DNA of 41,983 bases, taken from the NCBI GenBank assembly GCA_023384455.1, contig JAHDWH010000027.1, forward strand, positions 1 to 41,983, in the 5' to 3' direction. Numbering within the stretch: position 1 is the first letter of the stretch; the number at the start of each line of letters is the position of its first letter. The position numbers and the translations under genes are program-made. A model generated the notes under the pieces. The model saw only the letters and a program-made list of their open reading frames with translations. It made no database searches and was not told where the DNA came from. Positions 6,277-40,878 of the stretch are shown here, piece by piece. Source of the stretch: Caldilineaceae bacterium. Lineage in GTDB: Bacteria; Chloroflexota; Anaerolineae; Caldilineales; Caldilineaceae.

Positions 6277-7848
6277 TTATTCTATCATATGCGAGACAAA
6301 AGGGCTGCTTTCCGGGGATGGCGATCTGTGTGCTTCTCCTTCGGCCTGCAATGCCCGGTATACTTCCATCACTTTGGCAGCCATTTTGGCCGGGTGGTGG
6401 TGGCGGGGAGTGGCGTCGTCCACAATGTCGCCGGTGAAGAGCCGATAGCCCAGTTCTTCTTCGGCTGCGGGCAGCGTCACCCACTCCACGCCCGCCTCCT
6501 CTGCCGGGTGGCGCAGATAGGCGTCATTGGCCAGCACTGTAGTAAAAGCATCCCCCGCGTGCAAACGCAGATGGCGCATGTGGTCGCTTACGCCAAAACC
6601 GTCGGTCTCGCCCGCTTCGGTCGCCACATTGCAGACGTAGAGCCGGATGGCGTTCGAGGCCCGGATAGCTTCGCGCACGTAGGGCACAAGCAGGTTGGGC
6701 ATCAGGCTGGTGAAGAAGCTGCCCGGCGCGGCCAAAATCAGGTCCGCCTGCAAAATGGCCCGCACAGTCTCCGGGTAGGCCCGACAGGCAGACGGCTCCA
6801 GATGCACCCGGACGATCTCGCCCCGTGCCGCGGGGATATTGCTTTCGCCCCGCACAAAGAGCCACTCCTCTGCGTGGGGCTGGCCGTCTCCGTTGAGTGG
6901 GGACGTCTTGCGCCGTTTGATCTCGGCGCACAGCTCCACATTGTCCAGCGTGCTGGGCAGGATGCGTCCCCGCACCCGCAACACCCGGCTGCTGTCGGCA
7001 ATGCCCGCTTCAAAGCTGCCGCTCAGGGCTGTCATCGTCGTAATAAAGAGATTGCCAAAGTTGTGGTTGTCCAGCCCGTCCCGGTCACCAAAACGGTATT
7101 GGAGCAGTTGGGTCATCAGCTCTTCCGCGTCGCTGAGCGCGGCGATATTGTTGCGGAAATCCCCTGGCGGCAAGACACCCATCCGCTGGCGCAGAATGCC
7201 GCTGCTGCCCCCGTCGTCGGCCACTGTGACTACGGCTGTAATGTTTTCGGTATAGTGGCGCAGCCCGCGCAGGAGGGTAGGCATCCCTGTGCCCCCGCCA
7301 ATCACAACAACTCTCGGCCCGGTCAGCCGCTGGCGGCGCTCCTGGCCCGACACCAGTACATCCATCAACTCCAGGCTGTTCATAGAATCCTGCCGACCCA
7401 GTAATACGCTGGCAAACTGCCGGTTGATCTGCCAGACAGCCCCGCCGGCCAGCCCAAAGCCCGCGGCAATGAGCAGACCACCCCGCAGCCAATCCGACAG
7501 ATCCGGGAAGGTCAACCCCACAACCGGCGGGGGCAGAAAGGGTGGCAAGGACAGGTTACGCAGGAGGAAGGCCATCCCCAGCCCGGCCACAAAGATACCC
7601 ACCATCAGCAGCAGAATCCAGCGTTTGACGGCCAGCCCCGGCGCCACCAGCAGCGACCAGCGGGAGCGGGAAGGTAACCGCTCACCCCCACCCAACCTCC
7701 CCCACAGTGGGGGAGGAGTCGATCCAGTTCCCTCCCTGGAATGGGGAGGGGTAGGGTGGGGTGGCTCAACAGGTACGCGGGAAGATTGCCCCTGTCTCGG
7801 GTCAAATTTTGTTGCGGTTAAAAGGTTTACAACAGCGCGTCTGAACAT
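6277..7848 (-). CDS. yvcK: YvcK family gluconeogenesis factor, membrane-anchored form, carrying an in-frame MITE insertion near the N-terminus
   Basis: VVVIGGGTGMPTLLRGLRHYTENITAVVTVADDGGSSG motif; two hydrophobic segments N-terminal to it; start MFRRAVVNLL upstream of the repeat-encoded segment. Confidence 0.88.
   Translation of the reverse strand: MFRRAVVNLLTATKFDPRQGQSSRVPVEPPHPTPPHSREGTGSTPPPLWGRLGGGERLPSRSRWSLLVAPGLAVKRWILLLMVGIFVAGLGMAFLLRNLSLPPFLPPPVVGLTFPDLSDWLRGGLLIAAGFGLAGGAVWQINRQFASVLLGRQDSMNSLELMDVLVSGQERRQRLTGPRVVVIGGGTGMPTLLRGLRHYTENITAVVTVADDGGSSGILRQRMGVLPPGDFRNNIAALSDAEELMTQLLQYRFGDRDGLDNHNFGNLFITTMTALSGSFEAGIADSSRVLRVRGRILPSTLDNVELCAEIKRRKTSPLNGDGQPHAEEWLFVRGESNIPAARGEIVRVHLEPSACRAYPETVRAILQADLILAAPGSFFTSLMPNLLVPYVREAIRASNAIRLYVCNVATEAGETDGFGVSDHMRHLRLHAGDAFTTVLANDAYLRHPAEEAGVEWVTLPAAEEELGYRLFTGDIVDDATPRHHHPAKMAAKVMEVYRALQAEGEAHRSPSPESSPFVSHMIE
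7674..7776 (-). mobile_element. MITE copy B, 103 bp, inside the yvcK ORF
   Basis: Perfect 8-bp target duplication GCGGGAAG at 7666-7673 and 7777-7784; ends GTAACCGCTCACC and (reverse complement) GTACCTGTTGAGCC. Confidence 0.92.
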
Positions 7849-7900: not shown

Positions 7901-9415
7901 ATGCCCGATTTTGTCACCTTTTCCCCCGTGGGTTACAATCAAACCAACTCCTGTTTCACCCACCCTTTACGCCCAGTGGAGGCGACGACAGTGGATCCCG
8001 CCCAGACCGTGACCCTGAACCCTGAACTCTATCTGCCCTCTCTGTCTATTCCCCTGACCTATGAGGAGAGCCTAGCCTGGATCTTTCGCGATGTGCGCTT
8101 TAGCGGGCGGGGGCGTAAATATGACAACCCAGAGCGCAGCCTGGCTCGGATGCGGGAGATTCTGGCACACCTGGGCAACCCCCAGCAACGCTTCCACGCC
8201 CTGCACATTACCGGCACAAAGGGCAAGGGCAGCACCAGCGCCTATGCCGAATCCATCCTGCGTCACCTGGGCTATCGAACCGGTCTCTTTACCAGCCCCC
8301 ACCTGCACAGCTTCCGCGAGCGCATTCGGGTGGGCGGCCAGCTGATCAGCCGGGATGAACTGGCCGGGCTGGTCAGCCAGTTGCGCGGGCCGCTGGAAGC
8401 GGTAGAAGACCTGAGCGTCTTTGACCGCATCACCGCCCTGGCTTTTCAGCACTTCGCCAACGCCGGGGTGGAATTTGCTGTGATTGAAGTCGGTCTGGGC
8501 GGACGGCTGGACAGCACGAATGTACTCCTGCCCGCTGTCTGCGCCATTACACGAATCAGTATGGACCACATGCACATTCTGGGCGACACAATCACCAAAA
8601 TTGCCCACGAAAAAGCCGGTATCATCAAAGCCGGTGTGCCCATCTTTAGCGCGCCCCAACACGAGGACGCGGCCCACGTATTGGCCGCACGGGCTGCCGA
8701 ATTGAATGCTCCTTTGCGTATAGTCGAGCCTTTGCAGAGCGCATCTGTACCTCTGGTGGGAACCCACCAGCAGATCAATGCCAGCCTGGCCAAAGGGATG
8801 ATTGAGAGTCTGGCCGAGCGCGATTTGATTCGGAGCCACTGGGACGGGGTGTTGTGGGGGTTGTCGGAGACCCGCTGGCCCGGCCGTTTCGAGCTGCTGC
8901 CCGACGCGGCCAATGCCCCTTTCCCCCTGCTGGTGGATTGCGCCCACAATGTGGACAGTGTGACGCTTCTCTTATTAACCCTGCAACAGTGCTATCCCGG
9001 ACGGCCCATTACCTTTATTTTTGGAGCCAATCGGGATAAGCAGCTAGAGCCGGAGATGGAGCTGATTTGGCAGCACACGGACCGGGTGGTGCTGGTGCAG
9101 AGCCAGCACCCCAAAGCGACCCAACTGGCCGATCTGGCCGCCCAATTTGCCCAGGTAGTGGCCCGGCAGCCCGCGCCGTCGGGCAGGCAGCCGGTGGCCG
9201 CGGCTACAATGACCGAAGCCATCGCCGCGGCCAACGCAATGACCCTACCCGGCGGTCTGCTTGTGGGCAGCGGCTCGGTTTTCGTGGCGGCAGAGCTGCG
9301 GGAAGCCTGGAACACCCTGCATCCTGGCCTTTTCCCGCCGCAGGATTGGGTACACGCGGCCGCGGGAGAACCGGTCCTGGTGCCGCCCCAGCCCGCACCC
9401 CAGCCAGGGGGATGA
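7901..9415 (+). CDS. folC: Bifunctional folylpolyglutamate synthase / dihydrofolate synthase-type Mur ligase
   Basis: HITGTKGKGSTSAYAESILRHLGYRTGLFTSPHLHSFRERI motif, DCAHNVDS; start uncertain (7901 ATG or a downstream GTG). Confidence 0.9.
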   Translation: MPDFVTFSPVGYNQTNSCFTHPLRPVEATTVDPAQTVTLNPELYLPSLSIPLTYEESLAWIFRDVRFSGRGRKYDNPERSLARMREILAHLGNPQQRFHALHITGTKGKGSTSAYAESILRHLGYRTGLFTSPHLHSFRERIRVGGQLISRDELAGLVSQLRGPLEAVEDLSVFDRITALAFQHFANAGVEFAVIEVGLGGRLDSTNVLLPAVCAITRISMDHMHILGDTITKIAHEKAGIIKAGVPIFSAPQHEDAAHVLAARAAELNAPLRIVEPLQSASVPLVGTHQQINASLAKGMIESLAERDLIRSHWDGVLWGLSETRWPGRFELLPDAANAPFPLLVDCAHNVDSVTLLLLTLQQCYPGRPITFIFGANRDKQLEPEMELIWQHTDRVVLVQSQHPKATQLADLAAQFAQVVARQPAPSGRQPVAAATMTEAIAAANAMTLPGGLLVGSGSVFVAAELREAWNTLHPGLFPPQDWVHAAAGEPVLVPPQPAPQPGG

Positions 9416-9416
9416 G

Positions 9417-10748
9417 ATGAGCGCCGCCTTTGTGCCTTTGTGTCTTCGTGGTTTTGTATCTGTTCAGCTACCCCATCCTGCCCCTCCCCATTCCAGGGAG
9501 GGAACTGGAGCGGCTCCTCCCCCACTGTGGGGGAGGTTGGGAGGGGGTGCGCAGGTACGTGGTTTTTGTCTCTTTTTTGCGCTGTTCCTATTGGCCGGGT
9601 GCAGCCGGGGCGAAGAGCAGCTAAACATCAATCTGCGCGATATTCTGCCCGCGGAATGGAAGGCCGTGGAAAACTGGAAACCGGTCAATATCGACGCGGA
9701 CAGCGAGCAGGAGTATCTGCTCTTTTACACCTACGACGCCAGCACTACCGCCGACGGCCTTGCCATCGACGGTCCTATCGGCGGGGTGATCTACGACAGC
9801 CAGACCCCCGCCTCTGTCCCGGCCAACGAAGCGGACAGCCGCCCCCCTTCCCCCTGGCTACAGCCCTACGCGTTGCTCCCCAGCTATTGGAAGGGCGCCG
9901 GCTATGGCTTTATTGCGCCCCCCCAGGCCGCTTCCCCCTCCTCTTTTGAAGTCAAGCGGGTCTTTGCCGAGGAGACGAAGAATCGCTACTTTGAAGCCCT
10001 GGCGGCCCAACAGATCGCCAGCGCCGGGGCCACACCCACCCCCGCCGCCCTGCCCGCCAACGACGAACTGGTGGTCTATGGCGGCTCCAGCCCCATCGGC
10101 GGCGTCACCCACATCAGCATCTTCTGGTGGAGCAGCCCCCGGGAGGGCTACGGCAGCACGCAGATTTCTGCTTCCGGCGGGCTGAAGGTAGTCAAATGGG
10201 ACGGCGGGGCCAACCGCTCCCCCATACGCGAGGTGCGGGCCCGCTACGCCGAGGAAGACCGCAGCCAACTCTGCAAAGAATCCATCTTCACCCGCTATCT
10301 GGACCCGGACTTTACCAGCGAGGTCGCCTTCCGGCCCGCGGTATACTATCACGAAGGCCCCCGTTCCCTTATCTTCTGTTATGGCATTCCCGAAACGCCC
10401 TTCTACCCCGAAGCCATTGTCTTGGCCTATCTGCTGGACCCCCGGGGTCACCGGGAGATGGTGGCCGAGGATGCCCGTAAGAGTGTGGACGCCACCCTGG
10501 AAAGCTGGCTGCGGGTGACCGCTCTGCAATATCATCAGACAGTAGATGCCATTGGCCCCCGCATCGCGCTGCCTGGTGCCGCGCCCTTGCGCACAACCGT
10601 TCGGGCCTATCTGGTCTATCCCACCCAGACCGGGGAGGAAGCGCGGATTTACGAATTCACCCTGGAACACCTGCCCACCAATAACAGCCAGCGCACCACC
10701 GACCAATGGCGTATCGTGGGCGCTACGCCGGTTCAGCCAAAGGGGTAG
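9417..10748 (+). CDS. Hypothetical lipoprotein whose signal peptide is interrupted by an in-frame MITE
   Basis: ATG two bases after the folC stop; hydrophobic [13 protein letters not shown] lipobox; repeat-encoded peptide between start and lipobox. Confidence 0.82.
9456..9558 (+). mobile_element. MITE copy C, 103 bp, inside the lipoprotein signal peptide
   Basis: Perfect 8-bp duplication GTGGTTTT at 9448-9455 and 9559-9566; ends GTATCTGTTCAGC ... GCGCAGGTAC. Confidence 0.92.
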
Positions 10749-12321: not shown

Positions 12322-12424
12322 GTATCTGTTCAGCCACCCCACCCTACCCCTCCCCATTCCAGGGAGGGAACTGGATCGACTCCTCTCCCAAAGTGGGGGA
12401 GGTTGGGTGGGGGTGAGCAGGTAC
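12322..12424 (+). mobile_element. MITE copy D, 103 bp, intergenic
   Basis: Perfect 8-bp duplication TTCTAAAT at 12314-12321 and 12425-12432; same ends as copy C. Confidence 0.93.
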
Positions 12425-16960: not shown

Positions 16961-17155
16961 AGGATACCACCTTTCCGAAACCAGCGGTTTCGCGGACTCC
17001 TGCAACACCCCATTGTGTTGTCTGGGATTAAGTATAACATACGCTATTTTCGTCTCTGGTGGGAATAGTACATAAGTGCGCAAAAATGTTGTGGGCTTGT
17101 GTGGTTGGCTATTTGCCCGCCACGCGCTTGTGCTATAGAATAAGCCATAACTGCA

Positions 17156-17250
17156 TAGATGGGGAGCTTGGATGTGCCAGGCTGAGAGGACAACCGACCA
17201 GTTGTCGACCCGTGGACCTGATCTGGGTAATGCCAGCGTAGGAAGCAAAT
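17156..17250 (+). promoter_or_regulatory. TPP (THI-box) riboswitch
   Basis: GGCTGAGAGGAC...GACCCGTGGACCTGATCTGGGTAATGCCAGCGTAGGAAGC matches the conserved TPP aptamer core. Confidence 0.96.
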
Positions 17251-17254
17251 TGCC

Positions 17255-17284
17255 AAGCCTGCCCAGATCGAGCAGGCTTTTTTG
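17255..17284 (+). terminator. Intrinsic terminator, probable expression platform of the TPP riboswitch
   Basis: AAGCCTGC-CCAGATCGA-GCAGGCTT followed by TTTTTGTTT. Confidence 0.88.
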
Positions 17285-25990: not shown

Positions 25991-26028
25991 TGGGTTCTCT
26001 CCTCTGTGGGGGATTCAGTGATTGATGT

Positions 26029-26084
26029 GTAACGCAAGCTGTTAGCTTGCGCTCTTGTGGATGCAAGCTAACAGCTTGCAGTAC
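26029..26084. repeat. 56-bp palindromic repeat, copy 1 (GTAACGCAAGCTGTTAGCTTGCG...GCAAGCTAACAGCTTGCAGTAC)
   Basis: Direct reading; same layout as 26140-26195. Confidence 0.9.
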
Positions 26085-26093
26085 CACTATAGG

Positions 26094-26129
26094 ATAACAA
26101 AACAGGCCCACTCTGTCGAGTGAGCCTGT
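26094..26129 (-). terminator. Intrinsic terminator of clpC
   Basis: On minus strand ACAGGCTCACTCGACAGAGTGGGCCTGTTTTGTT. Confidence 0.8.
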
Positions 26130-26139
26130 CGCTTGTACT

Positions 26140-26195
26140 GTAACGCAAGCTGTTAGCTTGCGCTCTTGCCTACGCAAGCTAACAGCTTGCGTTAC
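26140..26195. repeat. 56-bp palindromic repeat, copy 2
   Basis: GTAACGCAAGCTGTTAGCTTGCGCTCTTGCCTACGCAAGCTAACAGCTTGCGTTAC; the last TTA is the reverse complement of the clpC TAA stop. Confidence 0.92.
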
Positions 26196-28714
26196 AGCAA
26201 CAGCGCCTCAATCGCCTCGGTCGTCTCTGTATCTTCCGGCGTCACATCCCGGTGGGCAATCGTCTCGAAGAAATACTCCCCGTGCTCCTTGCCGTCGTCC
26301 CCGGTCAGCTTGCGGTGATCCACCTGAATCGTATCGCCGGGGACAAAGCGCCCGGCCAGAATCGCCTCGCTCAGCGGGTCCTGTATCTCGTTCTGGATCA
26401 CCCGGCGGATGGGCCGCGCGCCGTAGTCGGGATCGTAGCCTGCATCGGCGATGGCCAACCGGCCCGGCTCGGCCAACACCAGTTCCATCTCCTGCTCGGC
26501 CAGTTGCAGGCGAAGGGTCTTCATCTCCAACTCCACAATTTTGGTGATCTGCTCTTTCGTCAGGCTATGGAAAACCATAATCCCGTCCAGCCGGTTGATA
26601 AATTCCGGGCGGAAGGTCTTTTTCATGGCATCCATCACCCGCTTCTTCATCGTCTCGTATTCGTTCTCCAGCCGCACAGTCTCGTCCGCGGTGATGGCAA
26701 AACCGAGACCCTTCGACCCCTGGATGAGTTTGGCCCCCACATTGCTGGTCATAATCAGCAGCGCGTTGCGGAAGTCCACCCGGCGGCCTTTGGCGTCGGA
26801 AAGATAGCCATCTTCCATAATTTGCAGCAGCATATTGAAGGCTTCGGGATGGGCCTTTTCGATCTCATCCAGCAGAATCACCGAATAGGGGCGGCGACGC
26901 ACGGCTTCGGTCAACTGGCCGCCCTCGTCGTAGCCCACATAGCCGGGAGGCGCACCCACCAGACGGCTGACGTTATGCCGCTCCATAAATTCGCTCATAT
27001 CCAATTTGATCAGCGCATCTTCGCTGCCAAAGAGGAACTCGGCCAGGGTTTTGGTCAGGGCCGTCTTGCCGATGCCGGTCGGCCCCAGGAAAATAAAACT
27101 GCCGATGGGCCGCTTGGGGTCTTTCAGTCCCGCCCGTGCCCGGCGCACAGCCCGGCTGATGGCTTTGATCGGTTCTTCCTGGCCGATAATGCGCTTGTGG
27201 AGTTCGTTCTCCATATCCAGCAGACGCACCTTCTCTTCCCCGGCCATGCGATGCACAGGCACACCCGTCCACATAGCCACCACTTCGGCGATGTCGTCCG
27301 GGGTGACGTGGGGGCGGTTTGTCACCTGCTGCCAGCCCTCGCGCAATTTGTCCAGACGGCTCTGTAGCTCCACCTCCCGATAGCGCAGGTCGATGGCGTC
27401 GTCAAAGCGCTGGGTTTCCAGGGCTTCGTCCTTTTCCTTCTGCAAGCGCTTCAGGTCCATAAAAGTCTCGCGCAGGCTGGCCGCGTGGGGCGCTTTGTAC
27501 ATACGCACCCGGCTGCCCGCTTCGTCCATCAGGTCGATGGCCTTGTCCGGCATAAAGCGATCCGGGACGTAGCGAGCGGCCAGATTGGCCGCGGCGTGCA
27601 GCGCGTCCTCGTTGATAATCAATTTGTGGTGTTCTTCGTAGCGGCTTTTAATGCCACGCAAAATCTCAATCGTATCTTCGATGCCCGGCTCATCCACAAT
27701 AATCGGTTGGAAGCGCCGTTCCAGGGCCGCATCAGACTCGATATATTTGCGGTATTCGTCCAGGGTCGTCGCGCCAATAACCTGCAACTCGCCCCGGCTC
27801 AGGGCCGGTTTGAGAATATTGGCCGCGTCCACACTGCTGCCCGCGGACCCCGCGCCTACCAGCATATGTACTTCGTCGATAAATAGAATCGAACCGCTGG
27901 TAATAATTTCTTCGATAACCTTCTTCAGCCGTTCCTCGAACTGCCCCCGGTACATTGTCCCGGCTACCAGGCTGCCCACATCCAGCATCAGAATCCGTTT
28001 GTTGAGCAGTGTCTCCGGCACATCGCCTTCGATCACTCGCTGGGCCAGCCCCTCCACAATAGCCGTCTTGCCTACGCCCGGCTCGCCGATCAGCGCCGGG
28101 TTGTTCTTTGTGCGGCGGCTGAGAATCTGGATGACCCGCTCGATCTCCTTTACCCGCCCAACCACCGGGTCCAGCTTGCCCTCTTCCGCGGCTGCGGTCA
28201 GGTCCATACCCAACTGGTCGACCAGAGGCGTTTTGGATTCTTTCTTCTGCTTCTCTTTGCTCTGGGCCTGGCTTTGCAGCAAATTGCGTGCGGTCTGGGT
28301 GCGCACCCGGTCCAGGTTGATGCCCAGACCCCGCAGCACATTGACCGCGATCCCTTCCCCTTCCCGTACCAGCCCCAACAACAGATGCTCGGTGCCGATG
28401 TAGTGATGGCCCATCATCCGGGCCTCTTCCACGGCCAATTCGATCACCCGTTTGGTGCGGGGTGCCAGCGTGGGTTTGCCAAAGGGGGCACGTTCGCCCC
28501 GTCCGACCGTGCGTTCCACAGCCCGCACCACCTGGCCCGGTTCCACACCCAACTCTTTGAGGACTTTGACAGCCACGCTATTCTCTTCGCGTACAAGCCC
28601 AAGCAGCAGATGTTCGGTGCCGATGTAATTGTGATTGAGACGTAGCGCCTCTTCCTGGGCCAGCGTCAATACGCGCCGCGCCCGTTTGGTAAAACGATCC
28701 AGTTTGTCAGACAT
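26192..28714 (-). CDS. clpC: ATP-dependent Clp protease ATP-binding subunit ClpC
   Basis: Two Clp N repeats ([15 protein letters not shown]), Walker motifs [17 protein letters not shown] and [23 protein letters not shown] region. Confidence 0.97.
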
Positions 28715-40514: not shown

Positions 40515-40568
40515 AGGCAAATTATAGCACGCGTAGGGGATGGATGCGAACCGCTACGTATTCTTTAC

Positions 40569-40632
40569 GTAACTGTTCAGCCACCCCACCCCCTCCCAAC
40601 CTCCCCCACCGTGGGAGAGGGTGGGCAGTTAC
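40569..40632 (+). mobile_element. MITE copy E, 64 bp, internally deleted
   Basis: Both ends retained (GTAACTGTTCAGCC ... GGGTGGGCAGTTAC); flanks TTCTTTAC / GTCTGTAC match 6/8; first internal hairpin missing. Confidence 0.75.
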
Positions 40633-40743
40633 GTCTGTACGAAGGGTCTCTTGCGATAATAACCGAATTACCGACGAAAAAAGTGCAGTCTGTGTTACAA
40701 ATTGTAATGGAACTCCAGCCTACCCGGAAAAGTCACAACAAAA

Positions 40744-40840
40744 GTAACTGTTGAGCCACCCTACCCCTCCCCATTCCAGGGAGGGAAGTGGATCGACTCC
40801 TCCCCCACTGTGGGGGAGGTTGGGTGGGGTGAGCAGTTAC
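40744..40840 (+). mobile_element. MITE copy F, 97 bp
   Basis: Ends GTAACTGTTGAGCC ... GGGTGAGCAGTTAC; flanks CAACAAAA (40736-40743) / AAACAAAA (40841-40848) match 7/8. Confidence 0.88.
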
Positions 40841-40878
40841 AAACAAAAAGCCCTTCAGCAGAGCGGCTGAAGGGCTTT
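40841..40878 (-). terminator. Intrinsic terminator of the downstream cytochrome gene (minus strand)
   Basis: AAAGCCCTTCAGC-AGAGCG-GCTGAAGGGCTTT with A-rich tract on the plus strand (T tract on minus). Confidence 0.9.

Follow-up and report, generated by a model that had tools for sequence, protein, structure and literature searches.

The locus

This study examined a window of 41,983 nucleotides, the whole stretch of DNA analysed, from a genome whose named relatives are Caldilineaceae of the phylum Chloroflexota. Beside the stop codon of folC begins an open reading frame encoding a putative lipoprotein, for which no family match was found in Pfam or NCBIfam, and between codons 13 and 14 of this gene lies a copy of a MITE, hereafter copy C (Table 1). 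The frame is open from ATG 9417 through the element to the LAGC motif.

Table 1. Features at the junction of folC and the putative lipoprotein gene (window coordinates)
Feature	Position	Strand	Remarks
Stop codon TGA of folC	9413..9415	+	folC: TIGR01499, 333 bits
RBS-like AGGGGG	9406..9411	+	5 bases before ATG 9417
Putative lipoprotein gene, 443 aa in present form	9417..10748	+	mature part conserved, 13 orthologues
Second dispersed repeat, remnant TTTGTGCCTTTGTGTCTTCGTGGTTTT	9429..9455	+	encodes FVPLCLRGF
Left copy of target duplication, GTGGTTTT	9448..9455	+	
MITE copy C, 103 bp	9456..9558	+	sense orientation, frame 0 open (34-residue peptide)
In-frame TTG within MITE, possible alternative start	9537..9539	+	GGGGGAGG directly 5', zero spacing, predicted paired
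Right copy of target duplication, GTGGTTTT	9559..9566	+	
Hydrophobic stretch and lipobox LAGC	9567..9602	+	Cys62 in long form; Cys25 after in silico MITE excision

The insertion and the start of translation

The initial annotation had proposed a MITE with an 8-bp duplication at this site, and both its coordinates and its sequence were verified, the duplication being exact. A reading of 9 bp, CGTGGTTTT, is also possible, since the element ends in C and a C likewise precedes the left copy. The proposed preservation of the frame (103 + 8 = 111 bp = 37 codons) was likewise confirmed, and in silico excision joins codon 13 (TTT) to TGT CTC TTT exactly as described, at the boundary between the n-region and the h-region of the leader. 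Judged on the assembly, an artefact is unlikely; the duplication is exact, and folC, the start context and the lipoprotein gene stand in the congeners' order on both sides.

The ATG adjoining the folC stop is kept in all 13 orthologues, and in five congeners AGGAG(G) lies upstream of it. An ordinary intergenic MITE with the gene starting downstream was rejected, the only in-frame start between the element and the mature protein being TTG 9591, within the lipobox. The initial annotation had held that no start lies between the element and the lipobox and had allowed for one inside the element; no such codon had been named, and TTG 9537 is in frame. If translation began there, the element would supply a new start and a leader of 22 residues with the cysteine at residue 22. 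The purine-rich, Shine-Dalgarno-like GGGGGAGG just 5' of this codon is consistent with such a start; it abuts the TTG at zero spacing, however, and is 96% paired in the element hairpin according to the folding prediction. Given also the ATG kept beside folC, we regard initiation within the element as unlikely.

The element alone is predicted to form a strong hairpin (-56 kcal/mol). Around the ATG start, pairing is predicted whether or not the MITE is present, so RNA folding cannot decide between ATG 9417 and TTG 9537, and folding of the start region was unremarkable (z = -1.38). Rfam revealed no known RNA family at the insertion site. Its sole match in the window was a TPP riboswitch at 17150-17261 (60.6 bits; gathering threshold 54.3).

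The MITE family

The element is short, dispersed and present in many copies, leaves no room for a transposase gene, and carries inverted terminal repeats (GTAACTGTTCAGCCACCCC ... GGGGGTGAGCAGTTAC in the consensus); the consensus ends are GTAACTGTTCAGCC... and ...GAGCAGTTAC. In its own genome, 45 scored matches were obtained from 574 first-look candidates. A search with the consensus returned 601 candidates in this genome and 26-50 in six congeners, a loose count in which copies were not confirmed, and this difference indicates that the family was probably amplified in this Caldilineaceae species. Among the papers covered by a literature search on MITEs in Caldilinea-type Chloroflexota, none dealt with this family.

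We then considered stretches totalling 0.99 Mb (987 kb) of the genome, which contained 126 profile hits and 98 full copies; the sample favours contigs with known copies, a bias that affects copy density but should leave the placement of copies with respect to genes unaffected. The 8-bp duplication was exact in 58 of the 98 full copies and had at most one mismatch in 76, whereas the same offset search at random positions gave 24 and 110 of 2000, respectively. The target duplication around the MITE thus exceeds chance, as judged against random positions. No strong common target sequence was found among the duplications.

The length was 103 bp in 56 of the 76 copies with a good duplication, and sense frame 0 was open in 55 of the 63 copies of canonical length. 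Because 103 + 8 is a multiple of three, frame preservation is a property of the family and not a coincidence of copy C; with 37 codons added and one sense frame usually open, sense insertions can read through. By a hexamer coding score, which overlooks sites close to the end of a gene, the lipoprotein site among them, 4 of the 76 MITE sites (approximately 5%) were gene-interior, compared with 407 of 600 random sites. A preference for genes was therefore ruled out, and the scarcity of MITEs in genes presumably reflects removal by selection. The four gene-interior copies all read in the sense direction and keep the frame. One of them (L105:12727-12829) lies in frame at approximately residue 200 of a TilS-like gene (tRNA lysidine synthase), inside its PP-loop domain (residues 54-284); this gene is expected to be essential, and the copy there tests tolerance more strongly than does the lipoprotein copy.

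Copy C has 10 differences from the consensus over 103 positions, more than most copies, whose median is approximately 5. Nine of these differences also occur in at least one other copy and may therefore be subfamily variants. Eight are nonsynonymous in frame 0, so the element peptide shows no conservation; there is no sign of selection on its sequence. The peptide might nevertheless be a selected, useful addition, whether as a new domain or as a hairpin with a regulatory role, since its open frame has been retained and similar hypotheses exist for RPE and RU elements (PMC10969869, PMC2759123). These nonsynonymous differences, the rarity of the family within genes and the restriction of the insertion to one species argue against such a role, which appears highly improbable.

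The likely mobilizer

Two IS66-family elements of 1553 bp, 99.9% identical to each other, were identified in the congener G005, flanked by the 8-bp duplications gaaaatac and tcaatttg and with the ends GTGACTATTCAG (GTGACTATTCAGGCTG). Of the 12 outermost bases, 10 are the same in the left end of the MITE (GTAACTGTTCAG) and 8 in its right end, and no match longer than these 12 bp was found. The MITE thus has in common with both IS66 copies the duplication length and similar outer ends (GTRACTRTTCAG), but it carries no transposase gene and the agreement is seen in the outermost bases only. For IS66 elements, 8-bp repeats and termini of the form GTAAGCG have been reported (PMC11946415), and the 8-bp duplication is also given elsewhere (PMC3281130). 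On this comparison of ends, the MITE was most likely mobilized by an IS66-family transposase. The IS66 transposase domain (PF03050) had no match in the element's own assembly and was present in four congeners; an IS66 origin is therefore a good lead and not proven.

Leaders of the orthologues

The comparison covered 13 orthologues with an N-terminus, five of them from congeners; the G003 sequence is truncated. Residue numbers of the cysteine refer to the start codon adjoining folC. At this site the MITE was absent from all five congeners, and only one species carries the insertion. The lipobox cysteine lies at residue 47-66 in 11 of the 13 orthologues and at residue 62 in this genome (G000), so a long leader is not peculiar to the MITE. 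The congeners G004 and G005 have neither the MITE nor the second repeat, and in their leaders, MAATLVRLLCSLIFPLLLAGC and MSRVPRFLYCLPLLLLLAGC, the cysteine lies at residue 20-21.

A lipobox was sought as the pattern [LVI][ASTVI][GAS]C after a hydrophobic stretch. LAGC was found in 6 of 6 same-genus genes, and the sister genus has a lipobox-like motif. A custom script then applied the classical rule (cysteine at 15-35 and K or R in the first seven residues), which is a prediction rule and not a biochemical definition. The long form, with Cys62 and no K or R in its first seven residues, falls outside it, whereas G004 and G005 pass on both points. Because most orthologues also fail on the cysteine position, we call the product a putative lipoprotein throughout. 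Excision had been said to restore a textbook signal peptide, and this was borne out for Cys25 but not for the first seven residues, which have no K or R.

Every one of the 13 orthologues keeps the n-extension open. The shuffled-sequence probabilities of the individual cases were 0.13-0.39, and owing to shared ancestry the cases are not independent. In the sister genus its pN/pS was 0.54-1.35, compared with 0.12-0.26 in the mature protein. These findings fit a translated stretch whose residues are little constrained. An untranslated n-extension would also fit the pN/pS values, but the open frames in all thirteen would then be a coincidence. For the mature part of the present gene compared with congeners, pN/pS was 0.25-0.29, a value that lumps together the periods preceding and following the insertion.

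The insertion may instead have impaired export or expression, so that the gene would now be decaying into a pseudogene. An n-region of approximately 50 residues, rich in proline and glycine, and the strong predicted hairpin just past the start would be in keeping with such decay, but the 443-codon reading frame is intact despite the ten differences in copy C, and orthologues free of the MITE have n-regions equally long. We consider decay of the gene distinctly improbable.

An older repeat beneath the MITE

The sequence directly 5' of the element is itself repetitive. Allowing one mismatch, the pattern CTTTGTGYCTTYGTGG had 47 matches in the genome and none for the reversed control, and congeners had from 24 to 382. 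In G004 this palindrome family is expanded (191 + 191 matches, compared with 26 + 21 here), and the G004 leader lacks it. FVPLCLRGF or FVSLCLRGF stands directly 5' of the hydrophobic stretch in G001, G002 and G000, and in G001 both palindrome arms of the repeat are visible at the junction. Because FVPLCLRGF is encoded by a dispersed repeat and occurs at the same spot in G001 and G002, the MITE is nested in what remains of an older repeat.

The pre-insertion leader proposed in the initial annotation is therefore upheld in part. The MITE is indeed absent in five of five congeners, but the excised FVPLCLRGF is the remnant of another repeat and not an original classical signal. A different ancestral N-terminus among orthologues, which had been named as counting against the proposal, was partly encountered in the repeat-free congener leaders. 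The 'restored' pre-insertion sequence should thus be read with caution, as it may itself derive from a repeat.

In the mature-protein tree, G000 grouped with G002 and G004, and G001 with G005 and G006, with moderate support. That the junction is shared points to a single old insertion of the second repeat followed by two losses; alternatively, the repeat may have been gained repeatedly.

Interpretation and known systems

We favor the explanation, to which we assign a probability of roughly 0.68, that an IS66-mobilized insertion was tolerated, that translation reads through it from ATG 9417, and that export of the protein and its lipidation at Cys62 persist. A non-autonomous element would have inserted at the boundary of the n-region and h-region, most likely by means of an IS66-family transposase. 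Ribosomes starting at the ATG beside the folC stop would read through the element, and its 34-residue peptide would be added to an n-region that is dispensable. Neither the hydrophobic stretch nor the lipobox would be affected, and export and lipidation would be retained.

More tentatively, and with rather less than even confidence, we propose that the leader may serve as a landing pad, in which unrelated repeats become nested, in different species and always in frame, since the n-region would tolerate almost any open sequence; the 37-codon period of the MITE could let it pass through genes harmlessly.

In-frame palindromic insertions are already known, as RPE and as enterobacterial RU. The MITE resembles RPE in being a small palindromic repeat with an open frame that lies in frame in protein genes and for which translation as part of a fusion is predicted (PMC10969869). 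Nearly half of the RPEs lie in ORFs (PMC10969869), however, compared with the approximately 5% of gene-interior MITE sites here; host, length, ends and probable mobilizer also differ, and the 8-bp duplications are plain for the MITE. The likeness to RPE is therefore one of behavior only. In the enterobacterial ERIC-type elements RU-1, RU-2 and RU-3 (Delihas 2007, PMC2759123), the repeat forms part of the signal, whereas here the host gene provides the hydrophobic part and the lipobox, and the MITE does no more than extend the n-region.

The locus is a clear example, from Chloroflexota, of a mobile repeat turned coding sequence, and congeners with the empty site are available for comparison. 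It is also a natural test of the permissible length of a lipoprotein n-region. The nested pair of repeats, in a leader that has been repeatedly rebuilt, adds to its interest.

Other repeats in the window

A full MITE with the exact duplication CTTCCCGC occupies positions 7674-7776 on the minus strand, between folC and a CofD/YvcK-like gene. The same frame 0 can be read there in the ORF 7917-6277 if GTG 7917 is its start, and the copy may simply be intergenic. The contig begins within another copy (1-51, 92-98% complementary to 9456-9506 and 12322-12372), which suggests that the assembly breaks at these repeats. Two divergent copies or pieces lie close together at 40560-40841, and clusters also occur in L005, L007 and L023. 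A third repeat family is represented at 26028-26205 by two 57-nt direct repeats, both of them palindromes of the CGCAAGCTGTTAGCTTGCG type.
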